This document shows, piece by piece, positions 59,682 to 64,000 of a DNA stretch of 64,000 bases (positions are counted from its first letter, which is position 1; the number at the start of each line of letters is the position of its first letter). The notes under the pieces are model-generated. The model saw nothing but the letters and a program-made list of their open reading frames with translations, was not told where the DNA came from and did not search any database. This DNA is from Sediminibacterium soli (GTDB lineage Bacteria > Bacteroidota > Bacteroidia > Chitinophagales > Chitinophagaceae): contig NZ_JAACJR010000008.1 of assembly GCF_009939225.1 (NCBI RefSeq), positions 679,107 to 743,106 of the forward strand, given 5' to 3'. The translations under genes were made by a program, and so were the position numbers.

Positions 59682-59930
59682 ATTTGCCACGGGGTTCTGT
59701 TACCGGCGCAAAAAATCAGGTATAAATACGCTATGACAAATGAGTGCAACACGGTAATTTTCACCCGGTAAAGGATTGTCGGCCTGGCTGACATAGTTCC
59801 AGGCTTATTTGTTGATGAAACCGTTGCGGGTACTGAATTTTACGCATCATCGGCCGATGAGATGGGCTATCCAATCCTCCGCTACCCATGCCTGTTGCCA
59901 AACAGCGGGGGAAAACCAAAATTCAATGAT

Positions 59931-60119
59931 ATGAAAACGTTGGAATTAAAAACAACCGGTTTTGTTGAATTAAATGAACCTGATTCAATAGAAACAGCCG
60001 GCGGAAGTACCTCATTTGTTTACGACCTGGCCACAGCGTTGAGAGCAAATTTTCAGGCAACGACCGGAAACGTCAATGGTCTGGTCAAGACGGCCTTCAC
60101 CTGGTTCGCACAACAATAA
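59931..60119 (+). CDS. Double-glycine leader peptide precursor 1
   Basis: A 62-residue precursor. The leader MKTLELKTTGFVELNEPDSI ETAGG ends in Gly-Gly (residues 24-25), the cleavage signal of C39-peptidase ABC exporters, with the usual hydrophobic/acidic pattern (FVEL, SIETAGG). The core of 37 residues (STSFVYDLATALRANFQATT...AFTWFAQQ) has no cysteine and is amphipathic. The start is the ATG at 59931; the in-frame ATG at 59862 adds 23 residues that do not look leader-like. No homologous bacteriocin is recognised. Confidence 0.7.
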   Translation: MKTLELKTTGFVELNEPDSIETAGGSTSFVYDLATALRANFQATTGNVNGLVKTAFTWFAQQ

Positions 60120-60140
60120 TATTTCACAAAAAAAATCCTT

Positions 60141-60356
60141 ATGAAAAAACAATCACTGAACATCGAAAACATGATGCTTTCAGAACTTTCCGAAAGCGAA
60201 ACAGTAAACCGGTCCGGTGGAACCTTTCCCTGGTTTGTAACAGGAGCTGGCGGTCTTCTCGCATTCCTTGCAAAGAAATGCATTGACGATTGGCAGTGTT
60301 TCAAAGATGGCCTGTCAGGCAACCTTTGTACGCACGGCACCACGCACAGTAAGTAA
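60141..60356 (+). CDS. Double-glycine leader peptide precursor 2
   Basis: A 71-residue precursor. The leader ends LSESETVNRSGG (Gly26-Gly27), matching the LSxxE..xxGG pattern of bacteriocin leaders. The 44-residue core begins TFPWFVTGAGGLLAFLAKK and contains three cysteines (47, 53, 63), so one disulfide is possible. It starts 21 bases after precursor 1. The core segment WQCFKD (51-56) recurs as WQAIKD and RQSIKD in the two downstream 35-residue peptides. Confidence 0.75.
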   Translation: MKKQSLNIENMMLSELSESETVNRSGGTFPWFVTGAGGLLAFLAKKCIDDWQCFKDGLSGNLCTHGTTHSK

Positions 60357-60364
60357 CATGGGAT

Positions 60365-60419
60365 GAAGCTGACTGAAAGACATGGATGCTTCATTGATCC
60401 GTACTCTTTCGTCAGCTTC
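60365..60419 (+). terminator. Strong hairpin between precursors and downstream genes
   Basis: GAAGCTGACTGAAAGA (60365-60380) pairs with TCTTTCGTCAGCTTC (60405-60419) with one bulge; the loop can form its own GGAT/ATCC pair. There is no T tract, so it would more likely attenuate transcription or protect the upstream peptide mRNA than stop transcription completely. Confidence 0.6.
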
Positions 60420-60442
60420 ACTTCAAACAAAATAGATCCATA

Positions 60443-60550
60443 ATGAAAAAAACAATCTCGTACCTCCTGGGTGGCATCTGCGGCGTTTTGCTGGTAGACC
60501 TGCTTGTCAGCAACCGGCAGTCGATAAAGGATTTTTTCCTTACGCACTAA
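60443..60550 (+). CDS. 35-residue membrane peptide A
   Basis: The peptide MKKTISYLLGGICGVLLVDL + LVSNRQSIKDFFLTH has a basic start, one hydrophobic helix with GG and GxxxV/L packing, and a polar amphipathic end. It has no GG leader. It is 18/35 identical to peptide B, which has the same length, so the pair arose by duplication. Either immunity proteins or leaderless active peptides are plausible given the locus. Confidence 0.55.
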   Translation: MKKTISYLLGGICGVLLVDLLVSNRQSIKDFFLTH

Positions 60551-60585
60551 CCCGGGACCAGATCGTTCAGTCACAACAACATCGT

Positions 60586-60693
60586 ATGAAAAAACACATC
60601 CCGACCATACTTGGTTTCCTGGGCGGCGTGCTGGTGGGTTTTCTGCTGGAGCATAACTGGCAGGCCATCAAGGACCTGTTTCTCCGCAAATAA
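60586..60693 (+). CDS. 35-residue membrane peptide B
   Basis: The peptide MKKHIPTILGFLGGVLVGFL + LEHNWQAIKDLFLRK is a paralogue of peptide A 35 bases upstream. The hydrophobic helix carries GxxGG and GxxxG small-residue packing, and the end NWQAIKDLFLRK is amphipathic and basic. It shares WQxxKD with the core of precursor 2. The HlyD gene starts 65 bases further on. Confidence 0.6.
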   Translation: MKKHIPTILGFLGGVLVGFLLEHNWQAIKDLFLRK

Positions 60694-60758
60694 ACCCAGG
60701 CTTTCTTCAGCAACTTCCGGTACCGCATCGGCGCCGGCAGGTAACCTATTGCCTATCC

Positions 60759-61919
60759 ATGCTGCCTTCATTCGACGATATCAGCTATTTCAGCCAGCTC
60801 AGGCCCCCAAGGGCCGCGGGAAATGCATATCTGGTGCTGCTGGTGATCGTGTTTTCCGCCTTGTTGGCATTGCCATTTATCTATACGGATATTTCCATCA
60901 AAGCAGGGGGTATAACCCGGCCCGGTCATGAACGCACCGAAACAAAGGCCGCCGCAAGCGGCATCATCGATTCGGTATTTGTCAGAGAAGGACAGTTTGT
61001 TGAAAAAAACCAGCTCATCCTCCGGATCAGGGACCTGGCATCGGGCAACAGGCTGCTGCAAACCGGCACCGAGATAGACCAGTACCGGGCTTTTATCCAG
61101 GACCTTTCCGCACTCACCACCCGCCCGTTGCAGGAATCCCTGTTGCCCGTACTTCGCTCGGCAGTGTACACGGAACAGCTTAACCATTTTTTACAGCAGC
61201 AGAACGAACTCCAGTTACAGCTGTTACGGGCCGAAAAAGAGGTAACCATCAACAGCAGCCTGTACAAAGACAGGGTGATCTCATCCAAGGAATTTTTTGA
61301 TACGGAGAACAACCGCGACAAAATACTGGCTTCCCTCCGTGTTCAGCTGGGCGCAAGGCTCAGTACCTGGCAACAGGAGCTGGCGCGCTACCGGGCGGAT
61401 CTCTCGCGGCTCCGCGAACAAAACAGGGATATTCATATCCAGGCAGACCAATACCTGGTCAGGGCACCGGTGGCGGGTATCGTGCAGGGCGTGCATACAC
61501 GTTATTCGGGAGGACTGATACAAACCGGCGACCCTGTCTGCCATATTTCGCCCGAAGAAACACTGATCGGGGAATGCCTGGTTGCAGCAAAAGATGTGGG
61601 GCTTTTACAAATCGGTCAGCCCGCCCGTTACCAGGTGGAGGCATTTAACCATACTTATTTCGGCTCGCTTACCGGCGCCATCATGCAGATCGATAACGAC
61701 TATACGCCGGTTGACAACCAGCCTTTTTTCAGGGTGCAATGCAGTTTTGACAGCCTGCAGTTAGGGCTAAAGAACGGGTTCAGCGGGCGACTGAAAAAAG
61801 GGCTGAATTTTCAGGCGGCCTTTCTCGTTGCACGAAGAAGCCTCTGGCAGTTACTGTTCGATAAAATCGACGACTGGTTAAATCCTTCCGCCCCTGTATT
61901 CAAGAGAAAAAACACTTGA
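60759..61919 (+). CDS. HlyD-family membrane fusion protein of a peptide exporter
   Basis: A 386-residue adaptor. One N-terminal membrane helix (AYLVLLVIVFSALLALPFIYT, about 24-44), a biotinyl-lipoyl half (AAASGIIDSVFVREGQFVEKNQLILRI), a coiled-coil hairpin (about 125-240, rich in Gln/Leu), the second lipoyl half (YLVRAPVAGIVQGVHTRYSGGLIQTGDPVCHI) and a beta-barrel end. It bridges the ABC transporter to the outer membrane. Its stop overlaps the transporter start (TTGA). Confidence 0.9.
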   Translation: MLPSFDDISYFSQLRPPRAAGNAYLVLLVIVFSALLALPFIYTDISIKAGGITRPGHERTETKAAASGIIDSVFVREGQFVEKNQLILRIRDLASGNRLLQTGTEIDQYRAFIQDLSALTTRPLQESLLPVLRSAVYTEQLNHFLQQQNELQLQLLRAEKEVTINSSLYKDRVISSKEFFDTENNRDKILASLRVQLGARLSTWQQELARYRADLSRLREQNRDIHIQADQYLVRAPVAGIVQGVHTRYSGGLIQTGDPVCHISPEETLIGECLVAAKDVGLLQIGQPARYQVEAFNHTYFGSLTGAIMQIDNDYTPVDNQPFFRVQCSFDSLQLGLKNGFSGRLKKGLNFQAAFLVARRSLWQLLFDKIDDWLNPSAPVFKRKNT

Positions 61920-64000
61920 GAAGACCCACCCAGATAAAACAAAGAGACATTACCGACTGCGGCGCAGCCTGTCTGTGTTCCGTGGCGGCCTATTACCGTT
62001 TGCGTGTACCGGTAAGCCGTATCAGGCAACATGCCGGCACAGACCAGCAGGGAACCAATGTACTGGGCATGCTGCAGGCGGCAGAAAAAATCGGGTTACG
62101 CGCAAAAGCGGCCAAAGGACCTGCGGAAAGCCTGCAGAAGATACCCCTGCCGGCCATAGCGCATGTGGTGCTTCCCAACCAGTTGCATCACTATGTGGTG
62201 ATCTACCGCGTTCGGGGAAAAAAACTTTGCATCATGGACCCCGCCGACGGAAAGCTTCATCGAAAAACAACAGAACGGTTCAATAAAGAATGGACGGGCG
62301 TAATCCTGCTATGCATTCCCGGCGAGGATTTTACCGAGGGCAACCAGGTGCAGTCCAATGCCCTGCGTTTCTGGCAACTGGTTAAACCGCATTCGGGTAT
62401 TCTTCTGCAGGCATTGACCGGGGCCGTTGTATATACCCTGCTCGGACTGAGTACATCGCTGTACCTGCAAAAGATCATTGATTTTGTGCTGACAGACGGC
62501 AATACAAGACTGCTCAACCTGTTAAGCGCACTCATGCTGCTGCTGCTGGGAGTGCAGCTGTACATAGGGGTTTTCAAAACCCTGCTGGGGCTGCAGACCG
62601 GTCAAAGCATCGACGCAAAGCTGATCCTCGGCTATTACAAACACCTGCTGCAGCTGCCGCAGCGTTTTTTCGATACCATGCGTGTAGGCGAGATCATCAG
62701 CAGGGTGAACGACGCGGTAAAGATCAGGGAGTTTATCAACGATACGGCACTGAACATGATCGTGAACTGCCTGATGATCGTTTTCTCCGCCGCCTGTATG
62801 TTTCTGTATTACTGGAAACTGGCGGCACTTACCTTACTGATCGTTCCGTTGTATAGCCTTATTTATTTTATCGGCAACCGCATCCACAAAAAATGGCAGC
62901 GTATGCTGATGGAAAGCAGTGCGGAACTGGAAACCCAGTTTGTGGAAAGCCTGACGGCTGCGGGAACCATCAAACGTTTTGGCCTGGAACAGTATGCCGG
63001 CACACGTACAGAGAAAAAGTTCGCGGATCTTTTAGACCGCATCCGGCAAAGCAGCACAAAAGGAATTTACCTGAACACATCCACCGAGTTCTGCACCAGG
63101 CTGTTCACGATCCTTTTGCTCTGGGCCGGGAGTTATTTTGTGATCAGCCGTGAACTGAGTCCCGGTGAGCTGCTTTCCTTCTATGCACTGCTGGGTTACC
63201 TCACCGCGCCGCTGGGTTCCCTGCTATCGGCCAATAAAAACATACAGGAAGCGCTGATCGCCGCAGACAGGCTGTTTGAGATCATCGACCTGGAAACGGA
63301 AGCATCACCTGCCGCCCAGCTGGTGCTCAGTGCCGGCCTGGTAGGCGATATTCATTTTTCGGCGGTATGCTTCCGGTATGGAAGCCGCACAAATGTTTTT
63401 GAGAATTTCACGGCAACCATTCAAAAAGGAAAGGCCACCGCCATCGTGGGAGAAAGCGGCAGCGGAAAGTCCACGCTGCTCTCCCTGCTGCAGAACCTGT
63501 ATCCCTTGCAGAAAGGGCATATCCGCATCGGCGATGCCGATATACGGTACATCGATAAACAAAGCCTGCGCAAACTGGTATCGGTGGTACCGCAGCACAT
63601 TGAATTATTCAGCGGCAGTATTGCCGAAAATATCGCCATCGGCGACGAACAGATGGATATGAGTCGCATACTGCAACTGGCGCGGCTGCTGGGTATTGAT
63701 GATTTTGCCAATGATCTCCCGGCGGGTTACCATACCTTGCTGCACGAACAGGGCGTAAACCTCTCCGGCGGCCAAAGACAGAGAATTGCCATTGCACGCG
63801 CTTTGTACCGCAACCCGGAGATACTGATCCTGGATGAAGCCACTTCCTCGCTGGACCCTTTCAGTGAGCAGAAAGTGCAGGAAACGCTTCGCTGGTTCGC
63901 CTCATCCGGCAAAACCATTATCGTGATCGCTCACCGGCTGAGTACCATCCGTAACTGCGATACCATTCTGGTGCTAAAACAGGGAAAGCTGATCGAAGAA
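61916..64000 (+). CDS. C39-peptidase ABC transporter (partial, runs off the window)
   Basis: 695 codons are visible, open at base 64000, so only the extreme C-terminus is missing. The start is TTG at 61916, overlapping the HlyD stop. C39 peptidase domain (1-140): QRDITDCGAACLCS with Gln9 and Cys15, His92 in HHYVVIY, Asp108 in MDPADGK. Six-helix membrane domain (about 160-440). Nucleotide-binding domain: Walker A GESGSGKS (512-519), signature LSGGQ (616-620), Walker B ILDEATSSLD (about 638-647). It should cut after Gly-Gly leaders and export the cores of the nearby precursors. Confidence 0.95.
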   Translation, partial: MRRPTQIKQRDITDCGAACLCSVAAYYRLRVPVSRIRQHAGTDQQGTNVLGMLQAAEKIGLRAKAAKGPAESLQKIPLPAIAHVVLPNQLHHYVVIYRVRGKKLCIMDPADGKLHRKTTERFNKEWTGVILLCIPGEDFTEGNQVQSNALRFWQLVKPHSGILLQALTGAVVYTLLGLSTSLYLQKIIDFVLTDGNTRLLNLLSALMLLLLGVQLYIGVFKTLLGLQTGQSIDAKLILGYYKHLLQLPQRFFDTMRVGEIISRVNDAVKIREFINDTALNMIVNCLMIVFSAACMFLYYWKLAALTLLIVPLYSLIYFIGNRIHKKWQRMLMESSAELETQFVESLTAAGTIKRFGLEQYAGTRTEKKFADLLDRIRQSSTKGIYLNTSTEFCTRLFTILLLWAGSYFVISRELSPGELLSFYALLGYLTAPLGSLLSANKNIQEALIAADRLFEIIDLETEASPAAQLVLSAGLVGDIHFSAVCFRYGSRTNVFENFTATIQKGKATAIVGESGSGKSTLLSLLQNLYPLQKGHIRIGDADIRYIDKQSLRKLVSVVPQHIELFSGSIAENIAIGDEQMDMSRILQLARLLGIDDFANDLPAGYHTLLHEQGVNLSGGQRQRIAIARALYRNPEILILDEATSSLDPFSEQKVQETLRWFASSGKTIIVIAHRLSTIRNCDTILVLKQGKLIEE

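Follow-up and report, generated by a model that had tools for sequence, protein, structure and literature searches.

A candidate class IIb-like bacteriocin cassette with tandem 35-residue membrane peptides in Sediminibacterium soli

A stretch of 64,000 nucleotides (nt) of the Sediminibacterium soli genome (contig NZ_JAACJR010000008.1, positions 679,107 to 743,106; hereafter the window) ends in a compact bacteriocin-type export locus which comprises, in order on the forward strand, two short genes for precursors with double-glycine (GG) leaders (orf1 and orf2), an RNA hairpin, two genes for tandem membrane peptides (orf3 and orf4), hlyD, and a gene for an ATP-binding cassette (ABC) exporter with a C39 peptidase domain. 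We consider it probable, though well short of certain, that this locus is an inserted class IIb-like two-peptide bacteriocin cassette in which orf3 and orf4 form an unconventional immunity pair. The gene content, the leaders, the catalytic residues of the exporter, the membership of orf2 in a family of type-B peptides and the insertion itself are directly supported by the data below. The locus belongs to the Sediminibacterium group of the Chitinophagaceae and constitutes no new category: class IIb-like loci occur in many genomes of the genus, and it is a divergent one among them. What is unusual about it is an orphan partner peptide, a reversed precursor order, and tandem tiny transmembrane (TM) proteins in the immunity slot.

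Exporter and double-glycine precursors

The exporter gene starts with a TTG codon that overlaps the hlyD stop codon and extends 81 nt outside the window. Its product has the makeup that defines C39 exporters, namely an N-terminal C39 domain with Cys-His-Asp, a TM domain and an ABC ATPase in a single chain. The catalytic residues Cys15, His92 and Asp108 and the HlyD adaptor, which the original prediction had read from the sequence, are all present and are corroborated by Pfam matches to C39 and HlyD_3, and the ATPase motifs are intact (Walker A at 512, LSGGQ at 616). The closest solved relative is PDB 4ry2, an 'ABC-type bacteriocin transporter' (E 4.4e-165), which has the same full-length arrangement of C39, TM and ATPase domains, but the window gene differs in standing beside an HlyD adaptor. 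No other C39 match occurs in the whole source genome.

The product of orf1 has 62 residues with GG at 24–25 and a core of 37 residues without cysteine, and that of orf2 has 71 residues with GG at 26–27 and a core of 44 residues with cysteines at core positions 20, 26 and 36. Both have the form of GG-leader precursors, in that a leader of about 20–30 residues ends in GG and the gene lies beside a C39 exporter. A leader profile was built from 47 precursors of relatives (25 of type A and 22 of type B, as described below), with the window open reading frames (ORFs) excluded, and 528 ORF starts of 40–120 residues on both window strands served as the control. The two best distinct ORFs of the window were orf2 and orf1, at 15.7 and 13.8 bits, the next unrelated ORF scoring 4.1 bits when other starts of orf1 and orf2 were set aside, and in 3000 shuffles of each leader its score was never reached. 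This ranking and the shuffles indicate that orf1 and orf2 are GG precursors rather than chance ORFs, confirming the adjacent pair with these two cores that had been predicted. Their description as unrecognised also stands, as Pfam and NCBIfam gave no significant match for either and each matched nothing but itself in single-sequence searches among 5.8 billion proteins.

Features of the export locus and the adjoining regulator-like gene (positions are those of the window)
Feature	Position	Strand	Evidence	Reading
XRE-type helix-turn-helix (HTH) protein, 85 residues	59338..59595	-	Pfam HTH_3 1.4e-12; ribF–holA comparison	
orf1, GG precursor (leader 1–25, 37-residue core)	59931..60119	+	leader hidden Markov model (HMM) 13.8 bits	candidate partner peptide
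orf2, GG precursor (leader 1–27, 44-residue core)	60141..60356	+	leader HMM 15.7 bits	divergent type-B peptide
RNA hairpin after last precursor gene	60359..60425	+	folding z-scores	
orf3, 35 residues	60443..60550	+	one hydrophobic segment	candidate immunity peptide
orf4, 35 residues, orf3 paralogue	60586..60693	+	one hydrophobic segment	candidate immunity peptide
HlyD-family periplasmic adaptor, 386 residues	60759..61919	+	Pfam HlyD_3 3.2e-15, HlyD_D23 2.4e-10	
C39-peptidase ABC exporter, 721 residues	61916..64000 (ends at 64081, outside the window)	+	Pfam C39 1.2e-34, ABC_membrane, ABC_tran	

Insertion between ribF and holA

In the window a gap of about 4.75 kb between ribF and holA holds the XRE gene, the precursors, orf3 and orf4, hlyD and the ABC gene, with holA (a gene name given from reading the sequence) directly downstream of the exporter gene on the opposite strand. 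Of 15 other same-genus genomes that were searched, 14 yielded holA, and in 13 of these 14 no more than about 70 nt separate it from ribF, the fourteenth having a contig end there. As ribF and holA are neighbours in relatives, the cassette is an insertion. Three relatives with an empty ribF–holA site (G216, G608 and G696) carry an exporter locus of their own elsewhere, and the cassette is most simply seen as a gain at this site of a system that is patchy in the genus. The XRE gene, inside the same insertion, may have come with the cassette and may be a local regulator.

Related loci in the genus and family

A search with HlyD matched 36 of 294 family genomes (own included) at 36 places besides its own (loci L033–L068), and at all 36 a C39 ABC gene comes after hlyD in the same orientation, a few loci being cut by contig ends. 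When the first 266 residues of the exporter served as the query against 147 same-genus genomes, 39 gave a match, the source genome among them; the 32 places with roughly 44–73% identity are the window, L043 and 30 same-genus loci (L106–L135). In 19 of these 30 loci hlyD is preceded by a B precursor, then an A precursor and then a CPBP membrane protein. The B cores end in ..NWxxIKKGxxDGWN and the A cores follow GFWxDxxYxxG..FAKxAxxYQxSLPPNLKK with variants, the A set including weak members (L108a, L108b, L110, L111 and L112). These A and B pairs lend support to the earlier suggestion of an export locus with a possible two-peptide system. Seven of the remaining 11 loci have other or single GG precursors (L107, L109, L112, L117, L118, L125 and L135), and in four no GG precursor was detected, namely L106 and three with under 170 nt before hlyD (L113, L121 and L131). 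A CPBP protein was detected with home-made profiles in 23 of the 30 loci, and all ten candidates compared with Pfam (L036 and nine others) were Rce1-like. These counts are descriptive, since the relatives tallied are also the ones from which the profiles for A, B, leader and CPBP derive, the window ORFs being left out. The B, A and CPBP pattern is rarer outside the genus, at two of 35 loci (L035 and L036) among L033–L068 minus L043.

We take these CPBP/Rce1-like proteins to correspond to the Abi group. According to PMC6957408, a class IIb cluster encodes, besides its two precursors, a transporter with an accessory protein and a protein for immunity, and some of the immunity proteins are placed in the Abi group of putative membrane metalloproteases in PMC6957408 and PMC8538875. 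The layout of the B/A and CPBP relatives is that of two-peptide (class IIb) bacteriocins, and these loci would make up a class IIb-like bacteriocin family among Gram-negative Bacteroidota, with B precursors that carry no given name. Among the open-licence PMC papers listed in our searches, none was found on such loci in Chitinophagaceae or Sediminibacterium.

Relationship of the orf2 core to type-B peptides

Shuffles matched the score of the orf2 core on the B core profile in 3 of 2000 cases, and in none of 1000 cases did they match its highest pairwise score, which was obtained with the B core of L034; orf2 is a divergent type-B peptide. In the locus tally, where 848 ORFs are scored together and the threshold is stricter than in the single-sequence shuffle test, orf2 carries no B label. 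The L034 precursor is identical to P0028, a protein labelled Niabella yanshanensis (now Paraniabella). The relatives of orf2 have GG leaders and lie beside a C39 exporter, the opposite of the homologues lacking either feature that would have spoken against the original prediction. The expected conservation of reading frames in relatives holds for orf2, through the B family, and for the leader of orf1; it is not seen for the orf1 core, which has no detectable relative, so that only the leader of orf1 is conserved.

A profile search with the B family among the 5.8 billion proteins returned 47 B proteins including that of the window, the named ones all being 'hypothetical' or 'uncharacterized', and a PDB profile search gave one match at chance level. 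The B alignment used for the protein-database, NCBIfam and PDB profile searches and for AlphaFold (A2) includes orf2. An AlphaFold model of orf2 from 15 sequences, with helices at 31–35, 37–49 and 51–61, was too weak for use (mean predicted local distance difference test score 58). At E <= 0.1, the NCBIfam lactococcin G-beta model was matched by 7 of 15 members of the B alignment and the lactobin A/cerein 7B model by 6 of 15; the best NCBIfam match among them (7.4e-5, L036) spans leader and core, and the other printed ones lie on the leader.

Comparison with known bacteriocin systems and weighing of the two-peptide reading

The closest known systems are the class IIb bacteriocins of the lactococcin G and enterocin 1071 type, with which the locus shares two different adjacent GG precursor genes and a C39 ABC exporter with an accessory protein, to which relatives of the window locus add an Abi/CPBP-type membrane protein and a B family that weakly matches the lactococcin G-beta model. 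It differs from them in its Gram-negative HlyD adaptor, in cores without clear similarity to known ones, and in that neither a CPBP nor a LagC-like protein was seen at the locus. With the B/A and CPBP loci of the Chitinophagaceae it has in common the same exporter (up to 73% identity over the first 266 residues), the same leader and an orf2 core homologous to B, but in place of their A core, B–A order and CPBP protein it has the orphan orf1 core, the reversed order and two 35-residue TM peptides. Bacteroidetocins also pair a GG-leader peptide of Bacteroidota with a C39 ABC exporter. As described in PMC6671954, they are class IIa-like, with leaders of 15–16 residues and cores of 42 residues with four cysteines in the two main ones, and their loci mostly contain a thiol oxidoreductase and a five-TM protein. 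These leader, core and locus features are all absent from the window locus; neither a thiol oxidoreductase nor a five-TM protein was seen among its ORFs by reading, with the larger products Pfam-scanned.

We posit that orf1 and orf2 would be made as GG-leader precursors that dock by their leaders, that the C39 domain would cut both after GG, and that ABC and HlyD, with a presumed TolC-type partner encoded elsewhere, would export both cores. By analogy with class IIb, the cores might then insert as helices into the inner membrane of close relatives and permeabilise it. The hairpin would set the precursor genes apart from the genes that follow in the operon, and orf3 and orf4, as tandem one-TM peptides, would protect the producer. 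The processing and export steps follow from the protein families involved, whereas we infer the killing, the synergy and the target, as well as the pairing of orf1 with orf2 and the immunity role of orf3 and orf4.

Several observations weigh against this reading. GC content by codon position shows no bias in orf1 (0.44/0.44/0.43) or orf2 (0.47/0.43/0.49), unlike in ribF and hlyD. Homology to the class IIb-like pair is detected for orf2 with B and is not detectable for orf1 with A: the orf1 core is an orphan that is not recognisably type A, and it was rejected as such after 724 of 2000 shuffles reached its profile score and 342 of 1000 its best pairwise A score. The precursor order, orf1 then the B-type orf2, reverses the B–A order of relatives. 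The C-terminal end of orf2, KDGLSGN, replaces the KxGxxxGWN of B cores, so that the strict GxxxG of 18 of 22 B cores is absent; the orf2 core has only a GxxxG-like form, which is uninformative as it is present in 90% of its shuffles. Neither orf1 nor orf2 matched the NCBIfam class IIb models TIGR03949, NF038034 and NF038035 at E<=1, and the printed B and A members fall below the class IIb model cut-offs, several of their matches lying on the leader. Lastly, orf3 and orf4 have no convincing relatives in the 147 genus genomes.

The state of orf1 could instead mean a one-peptide bacteriocin, in which activity would come from the B-type orf2 alone, orf1 being a GG-leader passenger that is either decaying or unrelated. 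This would fit the lack of relatives of the orf1 core, the absence of GC bias in its codons, and those relatives with one detected GG precursor (L107, L125 and L135). Against it stand the well preserved leader of orf1, matched by no shuffle, the A and B pairs of most same-genus loci, and one strict GxxxG in the orf1 core that recurs in 5% of its shuffles, and we judge a one-peptide system improbable. C39 exporters also serve pheromones, and the GG peptides could be signals processed as in ComC/BlpC systems, which would agree with weak ComC/BlpC-model matches on leaders of relatives and with the XRE gene adjoining the locus; however, no histidine kinase or receptor was seen among the ORFs of the insert, the precursors of relatives are paired with CPBP membrane proteins, and a signalling role appears very unlikely.

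Tandem membrane peptides as candidate immunity determinants

The original prediction did not include orf3, orf4 or the hairpin at 60359–60425. The products of orf3 and orf4 are 51% identical, each having one hydrophobic segment (maximum 17-residue means 2.11 and 2.24), and their base use is of coding type (GC at third codon positions 0.67/0.69 versus 0.28/0.25 at second positions); in a codon comparison 10 are identical, 8 synonymous and 17 non-synonymous. Sixteen other genus genomes gave weak matches to them (E 0.0085 to 0.1), which we took as noise. Since convincing relatives are lacking among the genus genomes, the role of the pair is read from position and hydropathy. They fill the slot of CPBP in relatives, and at the window locus, which has no CPBP, they are candidates for a dedicated membrane immunity protein; of the two CPBP matches in the source genome, one is some 760 kb distant on this contig and the other is on a different contig. 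From this position, their TM character and the absence of a local alternative, we suggest that orf3 and orf4 most likely protect the producer. How immunity to two-peptide bacteriocins works is called a mystery in a 2019 paper (PMC6957408). Should orf3 and orf4 confer immunity, that of a two-peptide bacteriocin would become testable with a very small protein.

Alternatively, orf3 and orf4 could be leaderless helper peptides, small exporter subunits or toxin-like membrane peptides, which we regard as the lesser possibility, though one with some substance. Like them, small TM ORFs without GG leader lie directly 5' of hlyD in 4 of 40 other loci (L033, L034, L045 and L049), and L034, alone among these four, has a CPBP together with its small TM ORF. 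Set against this, orf3 and orf4 occupy the slot that CPBP holds in most same-genus loci, and their own locus is without CPBP. The small TM ORFs were counted by eye with pieces of CPBP or larger proteins dropped, by a filter that misses orf4, and three loci have nearly no upstream sequence; a further such ORF before hlyD in L117 was dropped as the C-terminal end of a 225-residue protein.

A more specific form of the immunity reading, which we offer as a speculation with little probability behind it, is that orf3 and orf4 are leaderless, membrane-anchored mimics of the bacteriocin helices, one per peptide, giving a two-part decoy immunity. It is about as doubtful that they would act in a dominant-negative manner, pairing with incoming cores through GxxxG helix contacts or occupying the docking site. 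The tail 'NWQAIKD' of orf4 resembles 'DWQCFKD' in orf2, and 19 of 2000 shuffles reached the score of orf4 against the orf2 core (344 of 2000 for orf3), the corresponding B-profile counts being 113 of 2000 for orf4 and 47 of 2000 for orf3. The small TM ORFs before hlyD in L033 and L034 carry the B-peptide C-terminal motif (0 of 2000 shuffles each); L033, which has no B precursor of its own, counts against the decoy. The strict GxxxG of orf3 and orf4 is present in 16% and 28% of their shuffles. These counts are suggestive at best, and mimicry was dropped as a firm claim.

A B-like tail (NYTEIKSGIVEGWNS and similar) also ends a 126-residue XRE-TM protein (L208:1210-1590) and occurs in a small TM ORF (L205) and in a TM open frame without ATG (L204). 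A fourth hit of this kind came from L207. The HlyD search matched nothing in the genomes of L204, L205 and L208, so that in these three cases the tail stands apart from any detected exporter locus and could be a shared or general membrane motif rather than mimicry.

Hairpin and promoter signals

The 229-nt stretch up to orf4 has a folding z-score of -3.21, and 60357–60440, an 84-nt segment chosen around the stem, folds at -30.7 kcal/mol with a z-score of -5.28. The hairpin is of attenuator or processing type, without a T-run. An Rfam search gave no match. In relatives, the 110 nt after the A gene, which were not selected for folding, reached z <= -2 in 19 of the 25 regions compared, drawn from 24 loci, which indicates that the family commonly has a stem-loop behind its precursors. 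A Bacteroidetes-type promoter 5' of orf1 was not accepted, the single -7 candidate being weak and without TTG. A sigma-70-like scan of a 1.7-kb stretch gave five sites versus 1.8 in shuffles, one of them (59895–59922) just 5' of orf1.

Further observations on related loci

One precursor of L033, of another core type, passes the cut-off of the lactobin A/cerein 7B model (25.6 versus 21.5 bits). In L033, L037, L117 and L118 the GG precursors 5' of hlyD have a core that starts with a hydrophobic, lipobox-like ..[AG]-G-C segment followed by an Asn/Gln-rich tail, an odd combination of GG leader and lipobox within one precursor, and in L033, L117 and L118 a membrane protein of 217–249 residues replaces CPBP, that of L033 having no Pfam match. 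A conserved small ORF, HTH-like by eye (..TTLFxYL..GAPIxY..), lies 5' of the precursors in L127–L129, L132, L134 and L043 and is a possible local regulator there; none was seen at the window locus. The genus also has another type of C39 exporter with about 30% identity (L136–L145), and in other genera of the family Gly/Leu-rich GG precursors (..LGGLLGGL..) lie 5' of hlyD with the same kind of exporter (L063, L064 and L065). In another family of the class, B-type precursors are followed by membrane ORFs that are CPBP-like in appearance (L210 and L211), and the system thus seems to extend beyond the Chitinophagaceae.

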